64,000 nucleotides of DNA from contig RGCG01000002.1 in assembly GCA_009919275.1 (NCBI GenBank), positions 20,028 through 84,027 of the forward strand, written 5' to 3'. Made by a program: the position numbers and the translations under genes. The notes under the pieces are model-generated. The model saw only the letters and a program-made list of their open reading frames with translations, did not search any database and was not told the origin of the DNA. This document shows positions 35,447 to 64,000 of the stretch, piece after piece. How positions within the stretch are numbered: the stretch's first letter is position 1; each line of letters begins with the position of its first letter. This stretch comes from Actinomycetota bacterium. GTDB lineage: Bacteria > Actinomycetota > Acidimicrobiia > Acidimicrobiales > Ilumatobacteraceae.

Positions 35447-36502
35447 ATGAGGAAACGATCGTTCTTGACCGGGGTCATCGCGGCCACGGTTGTGCTGGCT
35501 TCGTGCGGCGGGTCATCTGACTCGTCGTCGGGTGAGACAACGGCATCGACGCGTGTGAAGAACGCGGCGCTACCCGCAACGACTGTTGCTGCGACAACCG
35601 CGGCACCCGAGACCACCGCTGCACCTGCAACGACTGCGGCACCTGCGACAACCGCGGCGCCTGCAACGACCGCAGCACCCGAGACCACCGCGGCACCTGC
35701 GACAACCGCAGCGCCCGAGGTCACGGTGCCCGAAGTGACAAAGGTGAAGGACCCGGGTGGCTACCAGGCGACGTACCTCGCAACCACCGACCCACTCGGC
35801 TCACCGCGTCCCGCGTTGCCCGCCGAAGCATCGATCACAGCGAATGCGGCCAAGGCAGTCGGCAGCGTTTACCGCACCGACAGCGACGGCATCCTCGGTG
35901 TCACTGCCGCTGAATGGTCGGGCACGGCCACGCCGCTCACGCTTCGCTGGACAGTGAACGGCAAGCCCTGTGACAACTGCGCCTTCCTTTCGCCCACCTC
36001 GAAGAAAGTGGTGAAGGCCCTGCTGGCGGCGACATTGCCCGGTTCCGGAATCACCGGCATTCGAGGCCTCGATGCGACGGCCGTCGGAGTCGGTCGGTAT
36101 CAGGGCAGTGGTTGGGGTTTCGAAGTCCTCATCGGCGACCCGGCATCGGCTGAAGCGCAAAAGACCGGCAATGCAATCCGTGACTGGGCGCTTTCCTGCT
36201 CGGGTGATACCGCAGCGACCTGCCGCAACGTCGAGCTCGGAATCGGCGAACTGCGCTGGAAGAACCAAATCTGGTCGGTGGCCAACTGCACCTCTGCGCT
36301 GCAGAACGGCGGACCAAAGATTCTCCTCGCCGACGCAGCAAATCTGCTGAAGGGCGCCACTGCCGAAACCGCAAGCCTCGTGCGCCAACGCGCCGCAATC
36401 GATCGGGTGGCAATCGCCACGCCCACGTATCGCCCAGTTTTTGCGAGCTCGGGTGACGCCCGCGCTCTCACCGGATTCGCTTCGACAGGATGTGCGAAAT
36501 GA
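35447..36502 (+). CDS. putative lipoprotein with Thr/Ala/Pro repeat linker
   Basis: MRKRSFLTGVIAATVVLASCGGS lipobox; (ATTAAP)n linker; Cys-containing globular domain. Confidence 0.8.
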   Translation: MRKRSFLTGVIAATVVLASCGGSSDSSSGETTASTRVKNAALPATTVAATTAAPETTAAPATTAAPATTAAPATTAAPETTAAPATTAAPEVTVPEVTKVKDPGGYQATYLATTDPLGSPRPALPAEASITANAAKAVGSVYRTDSDGILGVTAAEWSGTATPLTLRWTVNGKPCDNCAFLSPTSKKVVKALLAATLPGSGITGIRGLDATAVGVGRYQGSGWGFEVLIGDPASAEAQKTGNAIRDWALSCSGDTAATCRNVELGIGELRWKNQIWSVANCTSALQNGGPKILLADAANLLKGATAETASLVRQRAAIDRVAIATPTYRPVFASSGDARALTGFASTGCAK

Positions 36503-46476: not shown

Positions 46477-48284
46477 TCCAACCCAACACAAGTAGTCGCA
46501 CAGCGCGGCTGTCGGTACTGGCACTTTTGCTGGTACCGGCAGCCGCGCTCGGCTGTTCGGGGGGCGGCGCCGAGCCGCTCGAACCCGTTGTGCCCGATGC
46601 ACTGCCGACCTTCGTGGAAAAAGGTCAAGCCGTGGGCTTCACCGATTCGCAGGGTGTGCGCAACGACGCTGCGAACTGTCTCTTCAGCAAGTCGAATCTC
46701 GCACAACGATTCCCCGATCTCATCGAGGCCGGGGTGGCGTCAGGATTGCGATTCAACCAGTGCGTCCCCGAACGGATGACGTCGGGGGCTGCGGCCGTCG
46801 ACGTTGACGGCGATGGCCTGGAAGACGTTGTCTTCACGCGCCTCACCGGCACGCCGATTCTCTATCTCAACGAGAGCACCCCGGGCGCACCATTGTTTCG
46901 CAATGCCACGCAGGGGTCGGGCTTCGACAAGGTCGAGGGTGCGACGAACGGTGTCGGTTTCGCCGACATCGACAACGACGGTGACAAGGACGTGGCCCTC
47001 ACGGGGGTTGCCTCACCGCAGATGTACCTGCTGATCAACGATGGAACGGGAAAGTTCACGGAAGAGGCCGTGGCCCGCGGTGTGGCCATGGACGACGGCG
47101 AACCACACGCAGGCCAAGGAGTGACTTTCGGCGACTACGACCTCGACGGCTGGCTCGACATGCACACCAACGAGTGGCAGTCGTCAATCGTTGCGAAACT
47201 CGGAGTGCCGTCGCACTCGCGACTGTTCCGCAACCTAGGGGCCCAGGGAAAGCCCGGTGTGTTCGAAGACGTCACTGAGACGGCGAAGACGCGGGTTGAC
47301 TCCGTCGTCGACACCACGTGGACGTTCAGCTCGATCTTCACCGACTTCGACGGCGATCGATATCCCGACCTCGCGGTCATTGCCGACTTCAACACCACGA
47401 AGTTGTTCTGGAACAACCGCGATGGAACCTTCGAAAACACAACCTACGAGTCGGGCCTCGGGGGAGAAGAAAACGGCATGGGCCTCGCCGTCGACTTCCA
47501 TGGCAGGGAACAAAAGCCGACGCTGTTCATTTCGTCCATCAAGTCGCTGTCGGATTGCAAGGATGACAGCGGACTGATCGGTACCGGGAACAGGCTTTAC
47601 CAATACGGTGAAGATCGCGTGTTCGACGACGTCACCGATCGCGCCGGTGTGCGCGACGGCGGTTGGGGGTGGGGCGCAAGTTTCATCGACGCCACCAACA
47701 CCGGATCGCGCGATCTCGTCCAGGCCGCTGGTATCGACGAACCGTGGTCGAATCCCGCGGGTTGCCACGCAAGAGACCCGGTCATCTATTGGCGCAACGA
47801 CGGCACCGATACCTACGACGAAGTGGCGACACGCGTGGGCATCGTCGAAACCAAGCCGACCAAGGCGACCGTTGTGTTCGATGCCGACAACGATGGCCGA
47901 ATGGACCTTCTCGTCACGCGCGACGCCGAGACGCCCGCATTCTTCCACAACGTCACGCCCATCGTCGGCCGGTACGTCGACGTTCGGGTGGTGGGGACCC
48001 GCAGCAACCGCGACGCCCTCGGTGCAATTGTCTCGGTGACGGCGTTACCCGATGGCCCGACAAAGAAGTACTTCACGGGCACAACGGGAACGTATCTCGC
48101 GCAGGACACCGCAAACTTGCGTATCGGTCTGGGCGGAGGTGTCGAACCCGTGCACCGCATCGAGGTGTACTTCCCGCTCAGCGATGAAACCGTCGTGCTC
48201 ACCAACATCGAGCGCAACACAACCGTCGAAGTGGTCGAACCAGATGGCTCAACTCCTTCGGCTGATGGTGGAGCCGGTTCGTGA
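46473..48284 (+). CDS. FG-GAP/VCBS repeat protein with ASPIC/UnbV (CRTAC1-like) C-terminus, lipoprotein-like signal
   Basis: GTG overlaps upstream stop (GTGA); AALGCSGGG; repeated AAVDVDGDGLEDVVF, FADIDNDGDKDVALTG, TDFDGDRYPDLAV; SNRDALGAIVSVTA...YLAQDTANLRIGLGGGVEPVHRIEVYFP. Confidence 0.9.
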   Translation: MIQPNTSSRTARLSVLALLLVPAAALGCSGGGAEPLEPVVPDALPTFVEKGQAVGFTDSQGVRNDAANCLFSKSNLAQRFPDLIEAGVASGLRFNQCVPERMTSGAAAVDVDGDGLEDVVFTRLTGTPILYLNESTPGAPLFRNATQGSGFDKVEGATNGVGFADIDNDGDKDVALTGVASPQMYLLINDGTGKFTEEAVARGVAMDDGEPHAGQGVTFGDYDLDGWLDMHTNEWQSSIVAKLGVPSHSRLFRNLGAQGKPGVFEDVTETAKTRVDSVVDTTWTFSSIFTDFDGDRYPDLAVIADFNTTKLFWNNRDGTFENTTYESGLGGEENGMGLAVDFHGREQKPTLFISSIKSLSDCKDDSGLIGTGNRLYQYGEDRVFDDVTDRAGVRDGGWGWGASFIDATNTGSRDLVQAAGIDEPWSNPAGCHARDPVIYWRNDGTDTYDEVATRVGIVETKPTKATVVFDADNDGRMDLLVTRDAETPAFFHNVTPIVGRYVDVRVVGTRSNRDALGAIVSVTALPDGPTKKYFTGTTGTYLAQDTANLRIGLGGGVEPVHRIEVYFPLSDETVVLTNIERNTTVEVVEPDGSTPSADGGAGS

Positions 48285-48850
48285 TGCGCCGTGTTCGAAT
48301 CATCCTCGTTGCGGTTTGCACAGTGACGCTCGTTGGGTGTGGGGGAGAGGACGACACCACAGCCGGTGATTCGACTGTTGCCGAAACAACCGTTGCAGCG
48401 TGCGTGCCCGTCGCCCGGGGGGCGTGTCGCGGCGCCGATTTGTCGGGTGCCGACCTCGCGGGCGTCGACCTGTCGGGCATCGACCTCCGCGCGGCGAGTC
48501 TCGCTGGTGCGGATCTTTCGGGTGCGAACCTCACCGACGCGAATCTCATCGGTGCCGACCTGGCCGGGGCGAAGCTTGCCGGGGCGGCGCTCGCGAGGGC
48601 CTCGCTTGACGAGGCAAACCTGTCGGGAGCCGACCTTGTGCGGGCGCGCCTCAGTAGCGCCTCGCTGCGCGCAGCACGGCTCGACGGTGCCGACTTCACT
48701 GGAGCGTTCGCCACCGATGCGACGTTTGCAACACGACGCTTCCCGACGGCGAAGTGGCTGAGCCTGCATGTTGAAGACGACCCGACTCTTCGTTGTTCTG
48801 GTGCTTGCAACGAGCGGATTCATGGCGACGCCTGCGTCGGCATCGGGTGA
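48281..48850 (+). CDS. pentapeptide-repeat lipoprotein
   Basis: CTVTLVGCGGE lipobox; ADLSGADLAGVDLSGIDLRAASLAGADLSGANLTDANLIGADL. Confidence 0.85.
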   Translation: MMRRVRIILVAVCTVTLVGCGGEDDTTAGDSTVAETTVAACVPVARGACRGADLSGADLAGVDLSGIDLRAASLAGADLSGANLTDANLIGADLAGAKLAGAALARASLDEANLSGADLVRARLSSASLRAARLDGADFTGAFATDATFATRRFPTAKWLSLHVEDDPTLRCSGACNERIHGDACVGIG

Positions 48851-50063
48851 TGGTGCAACCGTGCCGCGCGGTACGGGCGAAGTGTCGGCGGTGCTCACCG
48901 AAATGGCACCGCTCATTTCGCGCAACCGTCAAGGCCCCACGCGTACCAGTCGCCTGTACGGCATCATTGGCTACGCCATGCTCTCGGCGTCGAGTCAGCG
49001 CCCCGCGTTCCTCGCCAATGTCATCGACCCGGTCGAGATTCCCGAGGTGCCCGAGGCTCTGGACGATGCCATCGCCGCGGTGGCCGCGGGAACGACCGCC
49101 GTGCGAAAGTTGATGCCGACCAAACTCGACCGCACGACGTATGCAGAGCTGCGCGACAAGCTTCTTGCCGAGCTCGTGGCGAGCGCACCGCAAGACATCG
49201 ACGTTCGGGCGAGCCTCGTCCGGGGTGCACAAGCAGCGGTCGCCGTTCTCGCCCGTGCAAAGAACGACGGACTCGACGAGGCCCTCAAGATGACATACCT
49301 TGCGCCTCAGTCGGCGGGTGGATGGATACCCACACCACCCGGCTATCAGGCAGCAATCGACCCGGGGTGGGGATCGTTGCGCACGTACCTGCCGTCGACC
49401 AATTCGTGTGATCTCCCCGAGCCACCGCGCGGTGACGATGCGACCAACCCGTTCGGTGCCGTGGCACGCGAGGTTGCCGATGTCACCGCTGCACTGACAG
49501 ACGAACAGAAGTTGATCGCACGTTTCTGGGACGACGGCCGCGGCCGCAGCAGCACACCGTCGGGTCACTGGGTCGAGATTGCGGCACGTGCGGCTATGGC
49601 GAACTCGCTACCGGCAACCGACACGATCGCGATGTTCGGTTCGATGACGATGGCGTTGTCCGACGGGGTGATTGCCAACTGGCGCGAGAAGTACAGGTGG
49701 TCGGTCGAGCGGCCGGTCTCGGTGCTCGCGCGCGTTGACCCCGAGTGGAACTCGTATCTCACGACGCCCGCCTTCCCGGAATATCCGTCGGGGCACTCCA
49801 CCATCTCCCGCGTCGCAGCCGAAGTGCTGACGGCGACGATCGGGGAGTGGGCGTTCACCGATCCGGGATGGGGTCTCACCGACGGCTCGCGCAAGAAATT
49901 CGAGATCACGCCGCGCTCGTTCGATTCGTTCCTCGATGCCGCCGCCGAGGCAGGGGAGTCGCGAGTGTTCGGTGGAATCCACTACCCATTCAGTATTGAC
50001 GCAGGCGCCGATCTCGGGGTCTGCGTCGTGACGCCGTTCCTGGCCCGTTCGCCCGTGAACTAA
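48768..50063 (+). CDS. vanadium-dependent haloperoxidase/PAP2-like protein
   Basis: Signal peptide; FPEYPSGHSTISRVAAEVL...ESRVFGGIHYPFSIDAG motifs. Confidence 0.85.
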   Translation: MLKTTRLFVVLVLATSGFMATPASASGDGATVPRGTGEVSAVLTEMAPLISRNRQGPTRTSRLYGIIGYAMLSASSQRPAFLANVIDPVEIPEVPEALDDAIAAVAAGTTAVRKLMPTKLDRTTYAELRDKLLAELVASAPQDIDVRASLVRGAQAAVAVLARAKNDGLDEALKMTYLAPQSAGGWIPTPPGYQAAIDPGWGSLRTYLPSTNSCDLPEPPRGDDATNPFGAVAREVADVTAALTDEQKLIARFWDDGRGRSSTPSGHWVEIAARAAMANSLPATDTIAMFGSMTMALSDGVIANWREKYRWSVERPVSVLARVDPEWNSYLTTPAFPEYPSGHSTISRVAAEVLTATIGEWAFTDPGWGLTDGSRKKFEITPRSFDSFLDAAAEAGESRVFGGIHYPFSIDAGADLGVCVVTPFLARSPVN

Positions 50064-50132: not shown

Positions 50133-53100
50133 ATGGAAACGGGGGCACGTCGTCGCCTTGGCGCGGGTTTCATTGCCGCGTGCCTCGTCGTGCTTGCCGC
50201 CTGCGGTGGCGGAGGAGGCGGATCATCCGCGGGCGGTGACGGCGCGAGCCAGGCGAAGAACGCGGCGCCGGCACCAACGGGTGCGGTTGCAACCAAAATG
50301 CAACCTCAACTGAACGGGTGGGCATTCCCCAACTTCCCATCCGCAACGTTTCCCGATCTCAATTTCGACACGGCTGACCTCGTTTCGATGTTCGGCGCGG
50401 GCCCCGAGGTGTGTGTCGACGGAGTTGCCGACCCGTGCACACTCACCGCCGAAGCCGCGGCGTGGGCACGCATGGTCAACCAGGCCCGCGCGACGGGACA
50501 CTGCGAGGGTCTCGTCGCTCTCGCCTCTGCCCGTTTCAACAAGGCCGAACTTCCCGAGACGGTGAAGTTGCCCTCGCAAGAGGAAGAGATCCGCGCCGTC
50601 ATGCGCGCTTTCGCAACACAGTTCGTCCCCGAAGTTCAAGAGTCGATTCAGAAGTGGACCAAGGCATCACTCGCCGAGAAGGTCGATGAGTTGAAGCGGT
50701 CGTTCGCAAGCGACAAGTTGGAATACACACTCGGTGTCTACGTCGAGTCCGGTGGTCACGCCGTGTTGCCGTACGCAGTCGAGTATCCGACTCCCGACGT
50801 GGCTCGCATCATGGTGTACGACTCGAACTGGCCAGGACGCAACAGGTACGTCGATGTCGACCTGGCGAACGACAAGTGGTCGTTCTCGTTTGCCGGCGAC
50901 GATCCGGCCAGCGATCCGAACATTTGGTCGGGTGGCGCGGGTGACATGGACCTGACCCCGTTCGAAGCGCGTGAGGGAACTTGTCCCTTCTGCGGTGACG
51001 AAACCAAGGTCCAGTCAACGACGATGCTCGTGCGCACCGACAACCTCGACTGGTCGGTCGAAACGCCTGCCGGCGCCGTGTCGCCCACACAGGCCACGAA
51101 CGGCGATGGCGCAGCGGCCCGCCCCATCAAGGGTGGCGTGGTCATCACACGGCTGGCACCGCGGGCGACCGAACGTTCCTCGTACGACTTCATGATCACC
51201 ATCCCCAACGAAGTCCTGGAAAACGGCTCGTCAACGTCGTCGTCCACTGCTGTTGACGGAGAGGTAGCTCTTGCGACGCCGCGCCTCGACGCGTTCATCA
51301 GCGATGGTCAGCGACCGAAAGTCGCCTCAACGACGACGATTGCCGCGGCTCCATCGACCACGGTTGCCGCGAGTGGATCGCGGGCGAAGTTGCTCTTCGG
51401 TGGCGCGGCATCCGTGTTCGCCGTGACCCCGGGCGGAGTCGCACAGTTCTCGACGCCCGGGTCGAAGGACACGCCGGTCGAGGTTGGCGCCCGCTCCATC
51501 AAGTCGAGCGACCCGAACGTCGACCTCACACTGGCCTCGGGCAACCTCGTTGCGAACGCTTCGGGTCCGACCGTCGAGCTCGGGACCGAGGGAGGGACTC
51601 TGGCGGTTCAGGTCACCACGGCTAGCGGCGAAGTCATTCAACAAGAGGTCACCGTCGATACCCCGGCCGTGCAGGTGAAGGCCGATGCAACCGGCGGCGT
51701 GACGGTGCTCGAGGCGTCGTCGAGCGGCGAAGTTCAAAAGACCGAGATCGCTTCGGACGGCACCAAGACCCAAACCGTGGTCGATGCATCCGCGCTGAAT
51801 CTGAACAAGGTGGAAGTTCAACTCCCGCCGGCACTCGAGAGCAAAGCGATTGAGGCGTTGCCCAAGTTGGAAGATCGCAACCTGAACAACCCGAACTACA
51901 AGTCCGACGAGGCGTACACCGCGCCAACAACAACGGTTCCCACTGCGGCCGGTGCACGCGAAATTGCGGCGGCGTCAACCACGTCGGTTCCCCGAGGCGA
52001 GACACCATCGACCGTTCAAACCCGTAACGCGGCGCTACCCACGACGGTTGCTCCCGGCGCATCGACCGTGACCACGGTCGCAACGCGCAATGCCGCCCTA
52101 CCCACAACGACGGTCGCCCGTGCGGTGACGGCCGCCGGTGCTACCCCCACGACAGTCGCGGCGGTGGTCAGGCCGACTCTGTCGGGCTTCCGCATCGCCA
52201 CAAAGACCTTTGGTGACGACGCATTCACGCTCGACCCCCCCGATTCAAATAGCCCCGGCGGCTTCAGATATTCGTCCAGTCGAACCGATGTGGCAACTGT
52301 CAGCGCAACGACGGGCCGCGTCACGATCGTCGGTGCAGGAACAACATCGATCACCGCCACGCAGTCGGCCGTCCGCGGTTTCGAGGCCGCAACGATTTCC
52401 GCCACGTTGATTGTCGCAAAGGCCTCGCCGGTCAATTCGGACCTCCGTGACATCACGAAGACGTTTGGAGATGACTCGTTCACGATCGCCCGACCCACGT
52501 CGACTTCCAACGGCGCCTTCACCTTTGCGAGCAGCGACGAAGACGTCCTCAAGCAGTCGCGCACGACGGGCCGGTGGATCATCGGTGGTGCCGGTCGTGC
52601 CACAATCACCATCACGCAGGCCGCAACCGACGACTTCGTCGCCGCAACCGACAGTTTCGTGGTGACGGTGCGAAAAGGCACCCCAACCCTGACCGCGCCC
52701 ACCGACGTCTCGAAGGCGTTCCTCGACGCCGACTTCGATCTACCGAGGCCAACCTCCGACAGTCGCGGGGCCTTCACGTATTCCTCGTCCGACGCAAACG
52801 TGGTCAATGTGTCCGGCACCCGCGCATCAGTACGTGCCGCAGGTACGGCCACGATCACCGTCTCCCAGGCAACGACAACCGATTGGCTCGCCGCGAGCAC
52901 GTCGTTCAAAGTGGTTGTTGCCCAGGCGGCACCAACGCTCGCCGACTTCCCCGACGTCAACAAGACGTTCGGAGACGCTGCCTTCGACGTGACAGCACCG
53001 AAGTCGAATTCGAGCGGTGCTATCACTTACTCGTCGAGCGATACCGGAGTCGTCACGGTGGGTGAGCGCGATGGGCGAGTCAGCATCATCGGTGCCGGCA

Positions 53101-56100
53101 CGGCCACCGTCACTGCCTCGCAGGCCGCAACAACCAGCTTCAGCGCTGGTTCGATCTCCGCGAAGGTGACGGTTGCCAAGGCGACACCCGCAATTTCCAG
53201 CCTCCTCGTCGCCGACAAGACGTACGGTGATGCCGATTTCACCCTGAAGCCAAGTTCCTCCAGTCCCGCAGCGTTCTCATTCGCAACCGACAAGACCGAC
53301 ATCTTCGCCGTTGACGCAAAAACCGGGCTGGTGAAAATCATCGGTACCGGTACAGCGACGCTCACCGCGCGGCAGGAAGCGTCGGCCAATTTCGAGTCAG
53401 GGTCGGTTGCGGTCAGCGTGACGGTGAAGAAGGCAGCGCCAACATTCACCTGGACCCTCGCCAACAAGACCTTCGGTGATGAAGCGTTCGATCTCACCGC
53501 CCCGAAGTCGAATTCGAAGGGGGAGTTCTCCTACTCCGTGGACGACCCGACGATCGCAACGGTGTCCGCTGCGGGCCGCGTGAACATTCTCAAGGCAGGG
53601 ACCGTCACCATCACCGCCAAGCAGGTAGCCACCGACCTGTACGCGGCCGACTCGACGACGGCGAAACTCACGATTGACAAACTTGCACCGACGCTCACCA
53701 ACTTCGTCATTCCCGCCAAGAAATTCGGCGATTCCGCTTTCGCGCTGACGGCACCAACGTCGAATTCCTCGGGTGGCTTCACCTACGACATCGTTGCCGG
53801 CACTGAGTCGAATCCGAACGTCGCAACCGTTACTTCGGCCGGACAGGTCACCGTCGGCGAGGCAGGGACGGTGCAGATCCGCGCCACGCAGAATGCCACC
53901 GCAAACTACGCAACCGCATCAATCACCGCGACATTGACGGTAGGTCGTATCGCTCAACAAGGCACCTTGATCAATGGTCTGGTGGCACGGTGGTCGTTCG
54001 ATTCCGCGAACACACTCGGAGCCAACGCCGTGGGAACCGGAAATCTCACCGAGACGGGTGGACCTACCTGGACTTCTGCAGGAAAGGTCGGTGGAGCGGT
54101 ATCGCTGAACGGTTCGGGTGCCCACCTGTACCTTGCCAGTGGCTCAATCACCGGACTTCCCGTCGGGAACTCTTCGTACACAGTCTCGGCGTGGATCAAG
54201 CCGTCGGCATTCGGTGCGCGCGGCATTGTCGGCTGGGGCAACTACTGGAACTCCCGACAGACCAACGCATTCCGACTCGACGGATCCGGTGGTCTCTTCA
54301 ACTACTGGTGGGATGTCGATCTCTACGCGAATCCCCGTCCGAACGAAATCTCGGTCAACGGTCCGTGGGCGCACGTCGTTGCCACGTACGACGGTACGAC
54401 GCGGCGAATCTGGGTGAACGGCGTTGTCGCGAGCTCCGATACCAATCGCGGTGCTGCAAACGTCAGCTGTGTGGCATCGGGATGCAACTTTGCGATCGGA
54501 AAGACCGTCGGCAACGAGTGGTTTGCGGGTCTACTCGACGAAGTCACCATCTACAACCGTGCTCTTGACTCGTCCGAAATCACACAGCTCTCAGCCGGAG
54601 TCGGCGCGGCACTCTCCATCACCTCGACGGCGGGGACGTTCGGAGCGCCACTCAGCCTGACGACAATCGGCGGCCAAGGTCTGGGTGCGATCTCTTACCG
54701 TGTTGTCAGTGCCGGTACGGCAGGATGCTCCGTCACCGGATCAACCCTCACGGCCACGGCGGGAGGCAGCTGCGTCATCACTGCCACGAAGGAAGCCGAC
54801 CGCAACTACGACGCGTCCGCGTCGGCTGACACCACGGTCACGTTCAACCGCATCAGCCAGTCGTCGCCCGTCGTCATCTCCACCATCACAGCCATCGCAG
54901 GCGTCAACCTCGCACTTGCGGCGAGTGGTGGATCGGGGACGGGTGCGATGTCATTTGCCGTGGTGAGCGCGGGGACCGCCGGATGTTCAATCAGCAGCGG
55001 AGCACTCGTCACGACGGCAAGCGGATCGTGCTCAATCACGGCCACGAAGGCGGCGGACTCCAACTTCACGTCTGCGACCTCTGTGGCGACCACGATCACC
55101 GTCTCCAAACAGGTGCCGATTATCGCGCCGCTGGTTCTCGCCGATCGTTTTTACCTTGGGGCCGGTTTCACGGTTGCTGCACCGAACTCCACGAGTAGCG
55201 GAACGTGGACTTGGGCGTCCAGCAATACCTCTGTGGCGTCAATCAACTCGTCCACGGGTTCAGTCACCATCGGCGTGCCGGGCACGGCCATCATTACCGC
55301 GACTCAGGCCACCACGCCGATGCACTCATCGGCCGCGATTACCGCCGAGCTGAAGGTTCTCCCGGCCACCCCGACAATCGGGGCGTTGTCGATACCGTCA
55401 AAGACCTTCGGCGATGCGCCCTTCACGTTCTCCGCGCCGTCGTCAAACAGCACCGGAACGCTGACGTATTCCAGCAGCGATACCTCGATCGCCACGGTGA
55501 ACTCCGCAACCCGGACGATCACCATTGTCGGAACAGGGTCGACAACGATCACGGCCACTCAGGCCGCAACCACGAACTTCGCCACTGGATCAGTGACCGC
55601 GGTCTTCGTTGTGAACGGTGTGACGCCGACACTGACGACGTTCGGCGGCGACGGTGGGTCGGGCCCGGGCCTGAAGGGCACCCGCTACGTGGGCTACTTC
55701 AACGACAACGTGAACTGGTTTGCCACTGCGACAAAGCACGGCGACACGAACCAAATCACCAATTTCACCAACTTCACCTCGAGCGCCGACCTGTACAGCT
55801 GGGAATGGACCGGGTCGTTCAAGGCGTCGACGTCCGGTACCTACACCTTCTGCACCAACTCCGATGACGCGAGTTATCTGTGGTTGGGCCCCACTGCCAA
55901 GGTTGGCTTCACCACGTCGAATGCGCTCATCAACAATGCTGGCCTGCACCCGATGCGCGAGATTTGCAACACCACAACGCTCGTCGGTGGAACGTTCTAC
56001 GCAATCCGTATCCAGTTCGGTGAGAACGGTGGAGGTGACGCGATCATCGTGCGCTTCACCCCACCGGGAAGCGGCACCACCATCTACAACGGCACGGGTT

Positions 56101-59100
56101 ATTACTTCGGTGGTATGGGCCTCACGAGGGCTGAAGGCGACGCGCCGTTCACGCCAACCCTGCCCACATCGAACAGCCCGGGCGCGATCACCTATTCCAG
56201 CAGCGACACCTCGGTTGCCACCATCGATGCGAACTCAGGTCTCGTCACCGTGGTGGGCCGTGGCACCACGACGTTGACCGCAACCCAGGCGGTGAACGGC
56301 ACATGGGCCTCGACCAGTACGTCAATCGACTTGCGCGTCTTGCGGCGCGCAACGGTCGGATCCTTTGCTTTGCCGACCGGTGTCACGTTCGCCTCGGCGC
56401 CGTTCGCCCCCACGCCGCCCACTTCGAACAGCCCCGGAGCCTGGTCGTACGAAAGCTCGAACACCGCGGTCGCGAAGTGGGATCCGACCACCAGTCTCCT
56501 GAGCGTCGCAGCAGCGGGCACGGCGACAATCACCGCAGTTCAGGCAGAGACGGGTGAGTTTGCCGAGTCACGCGTCAGCACCATGCTGACGATCGCTGGT
56601 GAGACGGTCGTCAACATCGAAAGCGGCGACCGCCACACGTGCGGCATCACCGATCAAAGCGGCGTCGTATGTTGGGGTTACAACGATTTCGGGCAGCTCG
56701 GTGACGGCAGTCGAACAACTCGTTCGGCACCTGTCGCGGTGACCGGCTTGACGTCGGGAGTCGTGAAGATTGCGACCGGTTTCTGGCACAGCTGCGCGGT
56801 TCTCTCGAATGGCACCGTGAGGTGTTGGGGCCGCAATGACTGGGGCATGCTCGGTAACGGAACGAATACGGCGAGCAACACACCCGTCACGGTCACGGGA
56901 ATCACCAACGCGGTTGACATCGCGGCGTCGGCACACGCAACGTGTGCGATTCTCGCAACCGGAGCGCTCACGTGCTGGGGCCACAATGGCTACGGCGAAC
57001 TCGCCAACGGCACGACGACGACCTCATACGTTCCGGTTCCCGTCCCGAGTCTGACCAGTGGCGTCACCGACGTCTCGGGTACCGAAACCTTCTACTGCGC
57101 GACATTGGAAAGCGGTGCGGCAAAGTGTTGGGGTCGCAATGATTGGGGCAATCTGGGCGACGGGACCACGACCATGCGCACAACCCCGGTCGACGTTCTC
57201 GGGCTCACATCCGGCGCGGTGCGGATCACCGTTCTTCGTCATTCAGCGTGTGCTGTGACGGGCGCCGGTGGGGTGATGTGCTGGGGTTACGGCGGCAACG
57301 GCCAAAATGGAAACGGGACCGGAACTCAATACCTGACCCCGGTTCAGGTCACGGGAATCACAAACGCGCTCGACGTCGCGGGCGGGTACCAGCACGTCTG
57401 TGCGCGTCTCTCGACCGGTGCGGTTCGCTGCTGGGGTTGGAACGGTTACGGCCAACTGGCCACGGGCAATACCTCGAACGCAACGGTTCCTTCCACCGTT
57501 GCCGATCTCACCGATGTGCGCGACATCTCGGTCGGCTACGGGTTCTCATGCGCGCTCTCGGTGAAGGGCGCCGTGTGGTGTTGGGGTCGCAACGACGGGG
57601 CTGAGCTTGGTGACAAGACGACGACGAACAGGTACTCACCGGTCGGTGTTGCAGGCCTGAAAACCTCGGTGACAACCGATCCCGAGACCCAGCTGTCCGC
57701 AGTGACTCTGTCAACGCAACGCTTCCGCGTCGGCGACACCGGTGTCGCCTTTGCCGCTGCATCCACCAACCGCACCGACGCGATCGCGTACACCAGCACC
57801 AACCCATCTGTTGCAACAGTCGATGCAACCGCTCGGACCGTGTCGATCGTCGGCACCGGTGTGGCCTACGTGAAGGCGAGCCTTCCCGCGACTGCCACGC
57901 AATCTGCTGCGGTGTCGTACGCGCGTGTCGGGGTGCCAACGGCCGAATATGTCCAAGTCAGCGCCGGATACCACTCATCCTGCGGCTTGACCGCCGCAGG
58001 GGAAGTCAGGTGTTGGGGCAACGGCGACTGGGGTCAGCTCGGTAACTCAACAACAGAACGTCGCTACGCGCCGACCACCGTGACCGACCTCGGTTCGGGC
58101 GCGTCGTCGGTCGCGGTTGGCCACCACCATGCGTGTGCGGTCACAAGTCGTGGTGGGGTCGTCTGCTGGGGATTGAACGATTACGGGCAGATCGGTTTTG
58201 GTACCACGTCCGTGCGTCCGTACGTTCCGGTCGCGGTCACGGGGCTCTCGTCCGGTGTGGTGCAAGTCGATGCCGGATACCAACATACGTGCGCACTCAC
58301 CGCTGCGGGAGGCGTGAAGTGCTGGGGTTACAACGGCTTTGGTCAATTGGGGGATGGAACAAACGAGAGCCGCACGGTTCCTGTCGATGTCGTTGGACTC
58401 ACATCGGGTGTCACCCAAATCGATCTTGGTTACGAGTTCTCCTGCGCACTCCTTGAAAACGGGACAGTGCGTTGTTGGGGACGCAACGATTGGCGCAACC
58501 TGGGTGATGGCACCACGACGGTGCGACACACTCCGCGTACGGTCAGCGGACTTTCTGGCGCCGTTGCTATCGCTGCCGGCTTCCATCACGCGTGTGCGGT
58601 GTTGAACACCGGGGCTGTTCGTTGCTGGGGTTACAACGGCAACGGACAGCTGGGAGACGGCACGGTGACCGACCGCAGCGCTCCCGTCACTTCGACCGGC
58701 CTGGCCTCGGGTGCCACACGTGTGGTCGCGGGCGGTCAGCACACCTGCGCACTCATGAGTGGTGGGGGAGTGAAGTGTTGGGGTCGCAATGACAGTGGTG
58801 AGTTGGGTGATGGCACGACGACTCGCCGTTTGGTCCCGACCGACGTGTCGGGACTCACCTCGGGTGTCTTTGAACTCTCGGCCTCGAATGGTTATTCGAC
58901 CTGCGCGATCGTCGCGAACGACGCCTTGAAGTGCTGGGGTTTCAACGACTGGGGCCAAATCGGCAACGTGGTTTCGGGCAATGTTTTCTCACCGACCAAT
59001 GTTGTTGATTCGTTCGCCGGAGCCGGACGCACCACAACGACGCTCGGGGCACTCGCACTTCCCGGCTCCAACTACACAACTGCAAGCCCGAGTTTCACGC

Positions 59101-62100
59101 TTCCGGTACCAACCTCGAGCAGGACGATCGGGACCTTGACGTGCGCCCAGGGCGGACCATGCAGTGTGGGTGACACCGGCCCCGGTGGCGGACGGGTCTT
59201 CCATGTCTCGTCCGGTTTTGCTGCCCCGGGTGCACCGTGTGGTTCATCGTGCAGATACCTCGAGGCTGCGCCGATTACGTGGGCCGGGACCAACGACGAC
59301 CCCCGCGTCGCGTGGTCCGGGAACACGGGTACCGCAATCGGCACGTCCGCGCGCGGCACCGCAATTGGATCGGGCTTCGGCAACACGCAGGCGATCATCG
59401 CCCAGTCGTCGACGACGAGCCGAGCCGCGACCATGGCGCGTGCATACAACGGCGGTGGCCTCTCCGATTGGTACCTCCCGTCGATCGACGAACTTCGACA
59501 GATCTATCTCAAGCGCGACACCATCGGCAGCTTGTCGTGTGGAGAGTGGTACCAAGCATCGACGGAGTTCGACGCGGGCTCACGTTGGTTGCAGCACCCG
59601 TGCCAAGACTCGACGGCAGTCACGGGCAAAGGTGACAGCCGCTACGTTCGGCCGATTCGCGCCTTTGCCCCGACAAGCGAGGCGACACCAATCTCGTATG
59701 TCAGTTCCAACCCTGGTGTCGCGACGGTTGATGCTCGCACGGGTGCGGTGACAATCACCGGTGCAGGGACGGCAATCTTGGCGGCGTCGCAGGGTGGTCT
59801 CGGTGCGGTTCGAGGTGCGGCCAGTCGCGTCACCCTTGCGGTCGAACCGTCCTGCGCCGACGGTGGAGCGTGTGTACCACCGGAGGTTCCGCCGGTGGGT
59901 GGCAGCCTGACGAACTGTCAGCTCGGCATTTCGTGTTCGATCGGTGACACCGGGCCCGGCGGTGGCAAGGTCTTCTTTATTGACACCAACGATGACTACG
60001 TCGGTGTCGACTATCTGGAGGCCGCGGTCGCCGGTGGGACCACCAGCTGGTGCAATACCTCCGCCGCCTCGACGTCTCTGTCGGGCACATCCGACAACGC
60101 ACAGGGCATCTTCAACATGCCGGGAATTCTCGCCAACTGCAGCAGCAGTGCGGCCCATTCGGCGCGGGCCTTCCCGGGTGGTGGACGAACCGACTGGTAT
60201 CTGCCCGCTCCGGTCGAGCTGCAACTCGTCAAGACAAACCTCATCGACGCCGGACTCCTCACCGGGGTGTCCGGGGAGTTTTGGGCATCGAATCAGGTGA
60301 ACGCCACCCGCGCCTACACCGTTGACCTGACTTCGGGCACTCGATTCGATGCATTGAAGACCGATTTGCGGGGAATCATGCCGATTCGTGCCTTCGCAGC
60401 GAAGGGGTCCGTTGCCATCAACGCGACGCTGACCGGCTTCGCCCTCCCCGCATCCTCGTACGTCTTTGGAACCGCGCCCTTCTCGGTGACGGCGCCAACA
60501 TCGCTCAACCCTGCGCCTACCGAATACTCCAGCAGCAACACGTCGGTGGCAACAATCGACCGTTACTCGGGACGTGTGACGATCGTGGGCTCCGGTTCCA
60601 CAACGTTCACCGCAACCGAGCCCGCGTATGGCGCCTATCTGGTGAAGTCGCAGACCGTCGCGTTCACGGTGACGAAGGCAACGCCCACGTTGAGCGGATT
60701 CACCGTGCCGGGTGGGCCGTACCGCGCTGACGATCCGAACTTCACGGTGGTCGCCCCAACACCGAGTACGACCGACGCGGGTGCGGTGGGTTACACGAGT
60801 AGTGATCCTGCAGTTGCCACGATTCACCCAACGACAGGCGTCGTCGATCTCCTCACAGCAGGGGTGGCCGTTCTTACCGCGTCGGTGCCGGGCAACGCGA
60901 ACTGGAACTCCGCGTCGGTGACCTATGAACTCACGGTCGGCGCATTGTGCAAGGACGGCGGCACATGTCGCATCGGCGACGAAGGGCCCGGCGGCGGCAC
61001 CGTGTTCTTCCTCGACACGTCGAACCAGTACCCCGACCTTGACTTCATGGAAATTGCACCCGCCGATGCCTCATCGTCGGCAACATGGTGCCCGTATTCG
61101 GCTGGCAGTGCTTCCACTGCGACGGGTGTGGGGACGGGTGCGGCGAACTCATCGGCGATGCTTGCGGCAAGCGCGTCGTGCGCTGCCGCGGCGGCCGCCG
61201 ACGGTTATGCCACGACGACACAGACCGACTGGTTCCTGCCGTCGAAGAGCGAGTTCGAACTAGCGGTGTCGAACCTCGCCACTGCCGGTATCACACTGCC
61301 CGCCGGGAAATACTGGACGTCATCGGGCGCGGTGACGAGTGCAGTCGGCGCCGGGGCTCCTCTTCCATCAACGTCGGGACTCGCACCGGTGCAGGGACTT
61401 GGCACGACGTACGTCGACATGACAACCGCGGGCGGAGGTTGGAAGCTCGTTGCCTACGGTGAGTCGGGCGCCATCGGCAAGCTCGACACGACAAACGGAA
61501 CGTTCAATGCAGCGACGCGGTCCGGATCGGCGAACCTGAACGCTCTCGAAGCGTTCCGTGGTGCCGACGAGGTGGCAATCTCGTGGACCGGCGCGAGCGG
61601 CACGCTTCCCACCGGCGGCATCGATTCGTACGCCAATGCGGTGTCGTTCAAACTGCCGATCGCGTCGCTGATGACGCTCACCGGAACGGCATCGACGCCG
61701 CCGACCGGCACCTCATCGACGTCGTTCTCGATCGGCGGTACCTCGGTCGATCAGTCACTCGTCAGCCTGACCACTCTTGTCGGTTCCCCCGGCCTACCGA
61801 GTTCCATGTACATGCGCAATAAGACGTTCGGTGTGCGGTATGGCTCGGCGTACGGTCTCGTCTCCAACCCCGGCATCAATCCGCAACTCGATTGGAACGA
61901 AGACGAACAGGCCTTCAGTGCCGTCTATCTGGGCCACGATGGTTCATCGGGTTACGTGACGCCGAGTGGTACGGCCAGTGGTTACGTGCCGCGGACGATG
62001 GCCGTGTGGGTGCGTTCATCGTCGGCGGTCTACAGCGACTTCAACACGGCGAATGGTTCGGTTGGCGACACGAACCCATGGACGTATTACGACATTCCGT

Positions 62101-63440
62101 CGGCACGAAGCAGCGCGACAGTCTTGCCGAACTGGCAGGCATCGGGCAACGAGGTCATTCCCCACGAGGCACAGTGGGACAACAACAAGTCGTACGGAAA
62201 CTATCCGTTCGTCCAGCGCGTCACATTCCCATCGTTCTCAGCGCCCGGATCCACGGCATTCGGTGGTCGACCTGCGCTGCTCATCCACCCGGACGACAGT
62301 GACAGCGGTGTCGGCGTGGGTTGGACGAACCGCACCGGGTCGGACATTGTGGTCGACATCGAGGGTTCGTTGAAGCTTGCGTATCCGACCAATAACACCG
62401 ATGGAATCTCTTACCACGTGCAGCGTGGTTTGGTGGGCGACACCAACTATTCGCTGATTTCGTCGGGCACGATTGCCTCCGGTACCACGGCGGAAACTCC
62501 GTTCTCGGGCTCGAAGATTCTCGTGCCGAGCGGCGAGTCGATCTACGTGATCGTTGGTCGAAACTCCGTCTACTACTGGGACCACACGATCCTGAAGTTC
62601 GACGTAACCCAGTCAACGCGTGGGGCGCATGTCGTCACACAGGCAGGCTCATCGAGCATCGCTCAGATCGGCCTGCCCGCCAAGGTTCGCGCGGTGCGTT
62701 CGTGGCAGAGGCGGAGCTCGTGTCTCGACATCAAACAGACAACCAACACAAACGCGAACGGTGTCTACACAATCAACGTCAACTCGGGTGGCGTCATCAT
62801 TCCGACACAGGCCTACTGTCTGATGGACAGCGCCATGGGTGGTGGTGGCTGGACGATGATCATGAAGTCGGCCCAGAACAGCACAACCTTCCCGTACGCC
62901 TCGAATTACTGGACCACCACGAACACCTTGAACGAGGGGTCAACCAATACAACGTCGGCCGACGCGAAGTTCTCGACCTTTAACCGCCTTGCCGGCACCG
63001 AACTGCTCGCCATCTTCCCCGACGTCAGTACGACATCGTTCGGGGCGACAGAGCGAGGTTCTATCGACGGCCACAACTATGGCTGGACGTGGACGGCGAA
63101 TGTGCCCAGTGGACCAAAGACAGCCCTTGGTCTCTTCGGCGGTGCCAATAACCAGTCGCTTGGCGACCCATTCCTCTTCTCCGGTTGGAACGGCTCGGTC
63201 TTCAGCGCGCAGGGCGGCTTCAAGTGGTACGGCTTCAACTACACGACAAGCGCTCCGCAGTTGAAGACGCGCTGGGGATTCGGCTGGAACAACGAGGGCG
63301 ACCAGGGGTCGAACGACGTGAGTGGTGGCATTGGCCTCGATGTGTCAGCACGTAGCTACTCGGCCGGCGACGTGATCAACTGCTGCCAGTCGCAGACCGG
63401 ACTGAACCGGTCGATGGCTGTTCAGATCTTCATTCGCTGA
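50133..63440 (+). CDS. giant mosaic lipoprotein (4,435 aa): Ig-like/BID_2-like repeats, LamG-like, PA14-like, 14 RCC1 repeats, Lcl/DUF1566-like, fibrinogen-related domain
   Basis: Single 13.3 kb ORF; lipobox VVLAACGGGG; domains recognised from translation. Confidence 0.92.
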   Translation: METGARRRLGAGFIAACLVVLAACGGGGGGSSAGGDGASQAKNAAPAPTGAVATKMQPQLNGWAFPNFPSATFPDLNFDTADLVSMFGAGPEVCVDGVADPCTLTAEAAAWARMVNQARATGHCEGLVALASARFNKAELPETVKLPSQEEEIRAVMRAFATQFVPEVQESIQKWTKASLAEKVDELKRSFASDKLEYTLGVYVESGGHAVLPYAVEYPTPDVARIMVYDSNWPGRNRYVDVDLANDKWSFSFAGDDPASDPNIWSGGAGDMDLTPFEAREGTCPFCGDETKVQSTTMLVRTDNLDWSVETPAGAVSPTQATNGDGAAARPIKGGVVITRLAPRATERSSYDFMITIPNEVLENGSSTSSSTAVDGEVALATPRLDAFISDGQRPKVASTTTIAAAPSTTVAASGSRAKLLFGGAASVFAVTPGGVAQFSTPGSKDTPVEVGARSIKSSDPNVDLTLASGNLVANASGPTVELGTEGGTLAVQVTTASGEVIQQEVTVDTPAVQVKADATGGVTVLEASSSGEVQKTEIASDGTKTQTVVDASALNLNKVEVQLPPALESKAIEALPKLEDRNLNNPNYKSDEAYTAPTTTVPTAAGAREIAAASTTSVPRGETPSTVQTRNAALPTTVAPGASTVTTVATRNAALPTTTVARAVTAAGATPTTVAAVVRPTLSGFRIATKTFGDDAFTLDPPDSNSPGGFRYSSSRTDVATVSATTGRVTIVGAGTTSITATQSAVRGFEAATISATLIVAKASPVNSDLRDITKTFGDDSFTIARPTSTSNGAFTFASSDEDVLKQSRTTGRWIIGGAGRATITITQAATDDFVAATDSFVVTVRKGTPTLTAPTDVSKAFLDADFDLPRPTSDSRGAFTYSSSDANVVNVSGTRASVRAAGTATITVSQATTTDWLAASTSFKVVVAQAAPTLADFPDVNKTFGDAAFDVTAPKSNSSGAITYSSSDTGVVTVGERDGRVSIIGAGTATVTASQAATTSFSAGSISAKVTVAKATPAISSLLVADKTYGDADFTLKPSSSSPAAFSFATDKTDIFAVDAKTGLVKIIGTGTATLTARQEASANFESGSVAVSVTVKKAAPTFTWTLANKTFGDEAFDLTAPKSNSKGEFSYSVDDPTIATVSAAGRVNILKAGTVTITAKQVATDLYAADSTTAKLTIDKLAPTLTNFVIPAKKFGDSAFALTAPTSNSSGGFTYDIVAGTESNPNVATVTSAGQVTVGEAGTVQIRATQNATANYATASITATLTVGRIAQQGTLINGLVARWSFDSANTLGANAVGTGNLTETGGPTWTSAGKVGGAVSLNGSGAHLYLASGSITGLPVGNSSYTVSAWIKPSAFGARGIVGWGNYWNSRQTNAFRLDGSGGLFNYWWDVDLYANPRPNEISVNGPWAHVVATYDGTTRRIWVNGVVASSDTNRGAANVSCVASGCNFAIGKTVGNEWFAGLLDEVTIYNRALDSSEITQLSAGVGAALSITSTAGTFGAPLSLTTIGGQGLGAISYRVVSAGTAGCSVTGSTLTATAGGSCVITATKEADRNYDASASADTTVTFNRISQSSPVVISTITAIAGVNLALAASGGSGTGAMSFAVVSAGTAGCSISSGALVTTASGSCSITATKAADSNFTSATSVATTITVSKQVPIIAPLVLADRFYLGAGFTVAAPNSTSSGTWTWASSNTSVASINSSTGSVTIGVPGTAIITATQATTPMHSSAAITAELKVLPATPTIGALSIPSKTFGDAPFTFSAPSSNSTGTLTYSSSDTSIATVNSATRTITIVGTGSTTITATQAATTNFATGSVTAVFVVNGVTPTLTTFGGDGGSGPGLKGTRYVGYFNDNVNWFATATKHGDTNQITNFTNFTSSADLYSWEWTGSFKASTSGTYTFCTNSDDASYLWLGPTAKVGFTTSNALINNAGLHPMREICNTTTLVGGTFYAIRIQFGENGGGDAIIVRFTPPGSGTTIYNGTGYYFGGMGLTRAEGDAPFTPTLPTSNSPGAITYSSSDTSVATIDANSGLVTVVGRGTTTLTATQAVNGTWASTSTSIDLRVLRRATVGSFALPTGVTFASAPFAPTPPTSNSPGAWSYESSNTAVAKWDPTTSLLSVAAAGTATITAVQAETGEFAESRVSTMLTIAGETVVNIESGDRHTCGITDQSGVVCWGYNDFGQLGDGSRTTRSAPVAVTGLTSGVVKIATGFWHSCAVLSNGTVRCWGRNDWGMLGNGTNTASNTPVTVTGITNAVDIAASAHATCAILATGALTCWGHNGYGELANGTTTTSYVPVPVPSLTSGVTDVSGTETFYCATLESGAAKCWGRNDWGNLGDGTTTMRTTPVDVLGLTSGAVRITVLRHSACAVTGAGGVMCWGYGGNGQNGNGTGTQYLTPVQVTGITNALDVAGGYQHVCARLSTGAVRCWGWNGYGQLATGNTSNATVPSTVADLTDVRDISVGYGFSCALSVKGAVWCWGRNDGAELGDKTTTNRYSPVGVAGLKTSVTTDPETQLSAVTLSTQRFRVGDTGVAFAAASTNRTDAIAYTSTNPSVATVDATARTVSIVGTGVAYVKASLPATATQSAAVSYARVGVPTAEYVQVSAGYHSSCGLTAAGEVRCWGNGDWGQLGNSTTERRYAPTTVTDLGSGASSVAVGHHHACAVTSRGGVVCWGLNDYGQIGFGTTSVRPYVPVAVTGLSSGVVQVDAGYQHTCALTAAGGVKCWGYNGFGQLGDGTNESRTVPVDVVGLTSGVTQIDLGYEFSCALLENGTVRCWGRNDWRNLGDGTTTVRHTPRTVSGLSGAVAIAAGFHHACAVLNTGAVRCWGYNGNGQLGDGTVTDRSAPVTSTGLASGATRVVAGGQHTCALMSGGGVKCWGRNDSGELGDGTTTRRLVPTDVSGLTSGVFELSASNGYSTCAIVANDALKCWGFNDWGQIGNVVSGNVFSPTNVVDSFAGAGRTTTTLGALALPGSNYTTASPSFTLPVPTSSRTIGTLTCAQGGPCSVGDTGPGGGRVFHVSSGFAAPGAPCGSSCRYLEAAPITWAGTNDDPRVAWSGNTGTAIGTSARGTAIGSGFGNTQAIIAQSSTTSRAATMARAYNGGGLSDWYLPSIDELRQIYLKRDTIGSLSCGEWYQASTEFDAGSRWLQHPCQDSTAVTGKGDSRYVRPIRAFAPTSEATPISYVSSNPGVATVDARTGAVTITGAGTAILAASQGGLGAVRGAASRVTLAVEPSCADGGACVPPEVPPVGGSLTNCQLGISCSIGDTGPGGGKVFFIDTNDDYVGVDYLEAAVAGGTTSWCNTSAASTSLSGTSDNAQGIFNMPGILANCSSSAAHSARAFPGGGRTDWYLPAPVELQLVKTNLIDAGLLTGVSGEFWASNQVNATRAYTVDLTSGTRFDALKTDLRGIMPIRAFAAKGSVAINATLTGFALPASSYVFGTAPFSVTAPTSLNPAPTEYSSSNTSVATIDRYSGRVTIVGSGSTTFTATEPAYGAYLVKSQTVAFTVTKATPTLSGFTVPGGPYRADDPNFTVVAPTPSTTDAGAVGYTSSDPAVATIHPTTGVVDLLTAGVAVLTASVPGNANWNSASVTYELTVGALCKDGGTCRIGDEGPGGGTVFFLDTSNQYPDLDFMEIAPADASSSATWCPYSAGSASTATGVGTGAANSSAMLAASASCAAAAAADGYATTTQTDWFLPSKSEFELAVSNLATAGITLPAGKYWTSSGAVTSAVGAGAPLPSTSGLAPVQGLGTTYVDMTTAGGGWKLVAYGESGAIGKLDTTNGTFNAATRSGSANLNALEAFRGADEVAISWTGASGTLPTGGIDSYANAVSFKLPIASLMTLTGTASTPPTGTSSTSFSIGGTSVDQSLVSLTTLVGSPGLPSSMYMRNKTFGVRYGSAYGLVSNPGINPQLDWNEDEQAFSAVYLGHDGSSGYVTPSGTASGYVPRTMAVWVRSSSAVYSDFNTANGSVGDTNPWTYYDIPSARSSATVLPNWQASGNEVIPHEAQWDNNKSYGNYPFVQRVTFPSFSAPGSTAFGGRPALLIHPDDSDSGVGVGWTNRTGSDIVVDIEGSLKLAYPTNNTDGISYHVQRGLVGDTNYSLISSGTIASGTTAETPFSGSKILVPSGESIYVIVGRNSVYYWDHTILKFDVTQSTRGAHVVTQAGSSSIAQIGLPAKVRAVRSWQRRSSCLDIKQTTNTNANGVYTINVNSGGVIIPTQAYCLMDSAMGGGGWTMIMKSAQNSTTFPYASNYWTTTNTLNEGSTNTTSADAKFSTFNRLAGTELLAIFPDVSTTSFGATERGSIDGHNYGWTWTANVPSGPKTALGLFGGANNQSLGDPFLFSGWNGSVFSAQGGFKWYGFNYTTSAPQLKTRWGFGWNNEGDQGSNDVSGGIGLDVSARSYSAGDVINCCQSQTGLNRSMAVQIFIR
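52160..53945 (+). repeat. seven tandem Ig-like (BID_2-like) repeats with KTFGDxxF motif
   Basis: ATKTFGDDAFTL, ITKTFGDDSFTI, VSKAFLDADFDL, VNKTFGDAAFDV, ADKTYGDADFTL, ANKTFGDEAFDL, PAKKFGDSAFAL. Confidence 0.85.
53960..54600 (+). other. LamG/concanavalin-like domain (approximate bounds)
   Basis: LVARWSFDSANTLG...YTVSAWIKPSAFGARGIVGWG...WAHVVATYDGTTRRIWVNGVV...FAGLLDEVTIYNRALDSSEI. Confidence 0.85.
55669..56119 (+). other. PA14/GLEYA-like domain (approximate bounds)
   Basis: LKGTRYVGYFNDN...YSWEWTGSFKASTSGTYTFCTNSDDASYLWLG...IRIQFGENGGGDAIIVRFTPPG. Confidence 0.8.
56610..57660 (+). repeat. RCC1 repeats 1-7 (first predicted propeller)
   Basis: Seven ~51 aa units each with C-x9-CWG. Confidence 0.9.
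57951..59015 (+). repeat. RCC1 repeats 8-14 (second predicted propeller)
   Basis: Seven further units each with C-x9-CWG, separated from block 1 by an Ig-like segment. Confidence 0.9.
62700..63440 (+). other. C-terminal fibrinogen-related (FReD-like) domain
   Basis: SCLDIKQTTNTNANGVYTINVNSGGVIIPTQAYCLMDSAMGGGGWTMIMKS. Confidence 0.65.
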
Positions 63441-64000
63441 TTGGTGGACCCGCCGGGCACGTGGCCTCACCCGGATCGGTGAGGTCGATCAGATAAGCGT
63501 CAACCAGATGCGTGACGCAGTCGACACCGAGGTAGCTGGTGTGCCGATTGCCTTCGACGGTGATCAATCGGGCATTTCCGGATTCCCGCGCGGTGGCGAG
63601 GACGCCGGCGAACGGGGAGGCGGGGTCCTTCGTGGCGCCGATGATCAGCGTCGGAGTACCACCGTCGCTGACCAATGCGGACGTCTCGGAGGCTCGGGCG
63701 GGCCAGCGCGCGCACAACTGATCGGGTGCGAAGAATGTGTGGAGACGCGGGGCTACCTGCGCGAGGTCGCCCACGGGTGTTCGGTCGGCGTCGTCGACAC
63801 ACGAGATGGCAACCGAGGCCTCGAACGTGTTGCGGAGATCCTCGAATCCCGCGTCCTGGTAGTAAAACCCGTCGTACATCGCACGAATCTTCGATCCGTC
63901 ACCGGCGGCAGCACTGGTCAATGCAGCATCGAGTTCACTCCACGATTCGGCGTCGTAGAGCGCCGAGATTGCTGCGGCAAGGACCATGTGCCGGGTAATT
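63430..64000 (-). CDS. alpha/beta hydrolase C-terminal part (TAP-like domain), truncated by the window end
   Basis: TPTLIIGATKDPASPFAGVLATARESGNARLITVEGNRHTSYLGVDCVTHLVDAYLIDL; frame remains open to the window edge. Confidence 0.8.
   Translation of the reverse strand, partial: ITRHMVLAAAISALYDAESWSELDAALTSAAAGDGSKIRAMYDGFYYQDAGFEDLRNTFEASVAISCVDDADRTPVGDLAQVAPRLHTFFAPDQLCARWPARASETSALVSDGGTPTLIIGATKDPASPFAGVLATARESGNARLITVEGNRHTSYLGVDCVTHLVDAYLIDLTDPGEATCPAGPPISE

Follow-up and report, generated by a model that had tools for sequence, protein, structure and literature searches.

The genomes of honeybee-gut Bifidobacterium each contain 7-24 genes encoding surface proteins with RCC1 repeats, each protein having 2-4 domains of on average seven repeats, according to the excerpted text of the report describing them (PMC4449606). 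In those excerpts the spacer domain that precedes each RCC1 domain is of the Flg_new type, the proteins are attached to peptidoglycan through an LPxTG anchor, and per-blade cysteines are not mentioned. Such cysteines are a feature of the plant receptor kinase CRINKLY4 (CR4/ACR4), in which each of seven repeats carries C(X~10)CWG and a disulfide is predicted in every blade across neighbouring antiparallel strands (PMC4617170). This kinase has a single ring, with ~39-aa repeats and three modelled strands per blade, as well as a TNFR-like region. Propellers of the RCC1/BLIPII type whose blades are highly repetitive come mostly from bacteria; BLIP-II itself is a secreted bacterial RCC1-type seven-bladed propeller, a single small domain with short blades that inhibits beta-lactamase. 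The same fold occurs in UVR8, RCC1 and HERC2, which are intracellular eukaryotic proteins. Two seven-bladed propellers comprising 14 blades in one chain have been solved for WRAP of Nostoc punctiforme (PDB 2YMU), a WD40-family protein with nearly identical blades for which the excerpted text reports no Cys pairs (PMC6805158), and a 15-blade WD40 array has been predicted to fold as 7+8 (PMC9218822).

Within the window, by which we mean the whole 64,000-nucleotide stretch of DNA analysed here, one open reading frame encodes a putative giant surface protein of 4435 aa in which residues 2159-2963 comprise exactly 7 + 7 RCC1 units. The features of this protein and its neighbouring genes are:

36490-46476, + strand: PKD-domain protein, 3328 aa, upstream of the giant gene
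about 46335-48284, + strand: putative lipoprotein with FG-GAP repeats (integrin-type propeller), upstream
48768-50063, + strand: PAP2/vanadium-chloroperoxidase-like secreted protein, upstream
50133..63440, + strand: host ORF, putative giant modular surface protein, 4435 aa (ORF call, Pfam/NCBIfam domains)
50193..50204, + strand: lipobox LAAC, putative lipoprotein signal, after a basic/hydrophobic N-terminus (sequence motif)
54156..54581, + strand: Laminin_G_3/concanavalin A-like domain (Pfam E 7.4e-22)
55665..56072, + strand: PA14/GLEYA-like domain (Pfam GLEYA E 8.3e-15, PA14 E 5.3e-11)
56607..57668, + strand: RCC1 block 1, seven units, predicted seven-bladed propeller
57669..57947, + strand: Ig-like (weak Big_2) spacer between the propellers, ~93 aa
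57948..59021, + strand: RCC1 block 2, seven units, predicted seven-bladed propeller
59409..59660, + strand: Lcl_C domain (Pfam E 7.2e-10, C-terminal part scanned alone)
62718..62861, + strand: fibrinogen-like YCDxxxxGGGW domain, near the C-terminus (NCBIfam NF040941 E 6.8e-13)
63430-63999, - strand: neighbouring protein

The strict motif C-x9-CWG occurs exactly 14 times in the whole ORF, once in each unit, at positions 56640, 56793, 56943, 57096, 57249, 57399 and 57549 in block 1 and 57981, 58134, 58290, 58443, 58593, 58746 and 58902 in block 2. The spacing between the two cysteines is the same in all 14 units, and the step between motifs 7 and 8 is 144 aa. Both blocks score above the curated cut-offs of the RCC1 and RCC1-like families (PF00415, PF13540, PF25390), with E values for blocks 1 and 2, respectively, of 1.5e-53 and 2.6e-58 for Pfam RCC1 (each block alone), 9.1e-48 and 1.6e-59 for RCC1_2, and 4.9e-69 and 3e-82 for WD40_RLD. 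This motif count and the per-block scores confirm the initial annotation, in which 14 RCC1-like units were described as 7 + Ig-like + 7 with an identically spaced C-x9-CWG in each; the unit length, given there as about 51 aa, ranges from 50 to 52 aa. When scored against their own matrix, the repeat cores reach 73-101 bits versus a maximum of 4.2 bits over 189,489 shuffled positions, a margin that is somewhat flattering because the matrix was trained on the same 14 units. As shuffled positions never exceeded 4.2 bits, the 7 + 7 repeats are not a product of chance. The Ig-like segment, previously placed at about 57690-57945, is present as a spacer at 57669-57947, with a weak likeness to Big_2 (E 0.012, 16 bits) that falls under the cut-off of 22.8. 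Several clear Big_2 Ig-like domains are found elsewhere in the ORF by Pfam.

The structure prediction proposed in the initial annotation was performed using AlphaFold2 on a 13-row alignment with relatives, and yielded a mean pLDDT of 82.9; most residues of the repeat blocks exceed 90, and most of those in the Ig-like spacer lie at 27-69. Block 1 is modelled with 28 strands, corresponding to four per unit in seven units, and block 2 repeats this arrangement apart from a few strands that are shortened or not assigned. The best Foldseek match among solved structures is the closed seven-bladed ring of UVR8 (4dnu), with a TM score of 0.92 by target length and an rmsd of 1.7 A over 369 columns. This match covers one ring, and the second ring rests on its strand pattern, its model confidence and the separate per-block family scores. 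Given a pTM of 0.49 and an alignment of 13 rows, the placement of the rings relative to one another is not fixed by the model. The seven repeats of each block are thus predicted by the model to close into a seven-bladed propeller, which supports the earlier proposal of two complete propellers in tandem.

The same annotation suggested a survey of orthologs for multiples of seven. Survey loci were taken from 80 genome-contig matches, 61 genomes around the window's own and further stretches, and were searched using a repeat matrix that ignored both cysteine columns, counting only arrays uncut by a contig end. Among 165 such arrays, 118 have either seven repeats (89 arrays, the commonest form) or 14 (29 arrays), and several of the others fall just short, with six repeats in nine arrays and thirteen in six. 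Both conditions that the initial annotation named as refuting, a model that does not close into two seven-blade propellers and arbitrary repeat numbers in orthologs, were put to the test, and the proposal withstood them. The arrangement of 7 + Ig-like spacer + 7 is found at the same place in a close relative (L009) and in two more distant ones (L010 and L011), and occurs in relatives of the same genus. RCC1 proteins are present in 12 of the 13 genomes of this genus that were searched, including the window's own. Proteins from other phyla have their 14 units in one unbroken run, with the same spacing at the 7/8 junction as elsewhere. For one such protein (L014), the folded model has a pLDDT of 86.6, with lower confidence around the 7/8 junction, and Foldseek once more ranks the closed UVR8 ring first (rmsd 1.5 over 364 columns). 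Because this model matches the closed ring and loses confidence at the junction, 14 repeats most likely represent two rings even when they lack a linker.

Several other arrays were also noted. At L061 (ORF of 795 aa), L063 (794 aa), L071 (838 aa), L064 and L078, RCC1-like arrays repeat at a shorter interval of ~37 aa; these too come as sevens or near-fourteens, and some have a Cys pair per unit like the ~39-aa repeats of plant CR4, with L064 having none by that test. A 22-kb locus of Reinekea marinisedimentorum (L017) contains seven neighbouring genes, each for a 14-repeat C-x9-CWG protein of ~800 aa, adjoining one 7-repeat gene, and represents a tandem gene family. RCC1-type arrays matching this region were also detected in 24 phage records, for example at 229655-230665 of Synechococcus phage S-SRM01. 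The L009 contig (JAGWWV010000001.1) is labelled Acidobacteria, and the size of its giant-gene ORF matches that of genus-mate G003 (4464 aa); it is probably derived from a misclassified actinobacterial MAG.

A disulfide in every blade, as initially proposed, was assessed from the co-occurrence of the two cysteines and from their position in the model. In a wide sample of 1414 unique repeats, 1306 have both cysteines, 42 have neither and 66 have only one, the second cysteine alone in 65 cases versus the first alone in 1; within mixed arrays, the cysteines co-occur more strongly than in all 2000 permutations. Because this sample was drawn with CWG-containing peptides and is therefore biased towards cysteine, a second, phylum-wide sample was selected by a Pfam RCC1 search blind to cysteine, and in it 125 repeats have both cysteines, 94 have neither and 5 have a single one, counts of pairing that, as in the wide sample, are inflated by kinship between repeats. 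Arrays are nearly all-or-none for the pair, which is kept even as the Cys-Cys spacing ranges from x8 to x11. Part of the apparent single-cysteine repeats were discounted as spacing variants of the pair. In the model of unit 1, the cysteines occupy residues 30 and 40, within strands 28-33 and 38-42 that are separated by a four-residue turn. Their location on two sides of one predicted hairpin fits a cross-strand disulfide. One hairpin disulfide per blade is therefore a well-supported prediction from sequence and model; the pairing and the hairpin position stand as observed and modelled, and the bond itself we infer. Two loci (L064 and L073) contain arrays of thirteen units of ~37-39 aa without the C-x9-C pair, and one such unit retains the cysteine of CWG but not the first one and ends in GQC, which suggests that the CWG cysteine has a different partner in some arrays.

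A phylogenetic tree of rings was constructed in which L009, an 87%-identical relative, stands for the window; with its many long end branches, its support values are rough. Block 2 of L009 groups with block 2 of L010, L011 and L093 (98/75), from which it follows that the second ring is shared by descent, and the placement of block 1 is unresolved. In several contiguous 14-repeat proteins, the two halves are mutually nearest rings (L014, 100/98; L016, 100/89; L035, 100/99), which points to repeated independent doubling. A recent duplication of a whole ring inside the window protein was considered and rejected, as in-register units are 46.5% identical versus 41-48% at other offsets. We tentatively propose, at slightly less than even odds, that Cys-paired RCC1 propellers constitute a distinct extracellular class spanning bacteria, archaea and plant receptors, in which a given domain has the disulfide in almost every blade or lacks it altogether, and in which pairs of seven-bladed rings have arisen on many independent occasions through doubling of a ring.

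The host protein begins with a putative lipoprotein signal, its processing judged from the LAAC motif, followed by a glycine run, and the L009 and L010 giants start in like fashion with LAAC or LSAC. The L009 homologue is of similar length and 80% identical over its length. A GD(T/E)GPGGG motif that occurs three times lends further support to the Lcl_C assignment. The C-terminus, ...NRSMAVQIFIR, lacks an LPxTG-like tail, and neither Flg_new nor kinase and TNFR domains are among the Pfam matches of the ORF. The FG-GAP and PAP2 proteins and the protein at 63430-63999 (-) match DNA adjoining the homologous giant gene in L009 and L010, and the PKD protein matches such DNA in L010 and L011. Because Ig-like, laminin-G-like, PA14/GLEYA, Lcl_C and fibrinogen-like modules are found in the rest of the protein, it is most likely a surface adhesin or receptor, a function suggested by its architecture.

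From what is shown here on the number and spacing of the repeats, on the co-occurrence of the cysteines, on the predicted ring and on domain context and conservation, we favor a joint reading to which we assign a probability of roughly 0.72. The 14 repeats would form two complete, closed seven-bladed RCC1-type propellers in tandem with an Ig-like joiner, each blade being stapled by a disulfide that links the two strands of one hairpin. These rings would lie mid-chain in a membrane-anchored giant lipoprotein displayed outside an uncultured Acidimicrobiales-type actinobacterium, with the Ig-like repeats acting as a stalk. Attachment of the cell to glycans or proteins on other cells or particles would fall to the propellers and to the LamG-like, PA14/GLEYA, Lcl_C and fibrinogen-like modules, all acting as binding heads; each of the two rings would most likely offer one binding face, and the disulfides would stiffen the small blades outside the cell.

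The propellers could be correct as predicted and the cysteines nonetheless be kept for core packing or for metal or redox chemistry, with no disulfide formed. Consistent with this, searches for the dedicated thiol-oxidase families VKOR, Thioredoxin_4 and DsbB found none in the window's own genome, which is 88% complete, and searches for VKOR and Thioredoxin_4 across the genus were negative or nearly so; the excess of second-cysteine singletons (65 versus 1) may likewise reflect a role of that residue within CWG. However, 7 of 12 genus-mates have DsbB-family genes, and pairing is all-or-none (125/94/5) in the sample that was not selected for cysteine. DSBA-family genes were detected in all genomes tested, some of which matches may be cytoplasmic relatives. 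The retention of the pair across spacings from x8 to x11 and the prediction of the same bond in plant CR4 (PMC4617170) also argue for the disulfide, and we regard its absence as unlikely. A single fourteen-bladed ring, or an open array, could be imagined from relatives having 14 contiguous units with no extra residues between units 7 and 8, but in the window protein a 93-aa spacer parts the blocks. Moreover, the window model and that of the contiguous relative both match the closed seven-bladed UVR8 ring, confidence dips at the 7/8 junction of the latter, and arrays of seven are the commonest, such that this geometry appears very improbable.

With respect to function, the nearest functionally known bacterial RCC1-type propeller is BLIP-II (Foldseek TM 0.75-0.78 by target), and by analogy the protein might not be a general adhesin but might instead inhibit or bind one defined enzyme, either in secreted form or at the cell surface. 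Yet BLIP-II is small, free and single-ringed, whereas the rings here belong to a 4435-aa chain with other modules of glycan- or protein-binding type, and UVR8 and HERC2 are better Foldseek matches; we consider such a role rather improbable, a shade more so than the lack of a disulfide. Membership in the common RCC1 repeat family, together with the published RCC1 effectors of Legionella (PMC7157520), would allow for a Ran-type nucleotide exchange factor acting in a eukaryotic host. A putative lipoprotein anchor, the giant stalk-like architecture, cysteine pairs suited to an oxidising exterior and a poorer fold match to human RCC1 than to UVR8 leave this the least probable of the alternatives.

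The adhesive double-propeller lipoprotein that we favor has parts with clear counterparts. Like the Bifidobacterium proteins (PMC4449606), it is actinobacterial and has two RCC1 domains with Ig-like sequence before each; it differs from them in having a lipobox and a Big_2-like spacer. Like CRINKLY4, it carries the blade motif in every repeat (C-x9-CWG, 14/14), and block 1 matches the ACR4 ectodomain structure (PDB chain 7a0j_AAA, E 1.3e-6), but its repeats are of ~51 aa with four strands, in two rings and with no kinase or TNFR region. Its blades would work like CR4 blades, and the protein is not a CR4 member. Sequence matches to the UVR8, RCC1 and HERC2 group extend down to E 4.9e-54, with an identity of 27% for the best match, and the aligned stretch of UVR8 lacks the per-blade Cys pair. 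The novelty implied by the initial annotation is not borne out, since the literature already describes both RCC1 domains of seven repeats in tandem and the C(X~10)CWG motif; every element is known in other proteins, and the window protein combines them. No bacterial giant of this exact make-up was found in the open-access literature.

Bacterial RCC1 arrays keep strongly to the number seven, even where 14 units follow one another without a linker, and the blade cysteines come paired; together, these regularities provide a simple rule by which such arrays can be read as complete rings. The arrays also offer a testable set of naturally disulfide-stapled propellers. If the proposed extracellular class is real, the 7 + Ig + 7 protein of the window would be one outcome of ring doubling. 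For the organism, these findings suggest that a large adhesin with multiple heads is encoded alongside several other surface genes.
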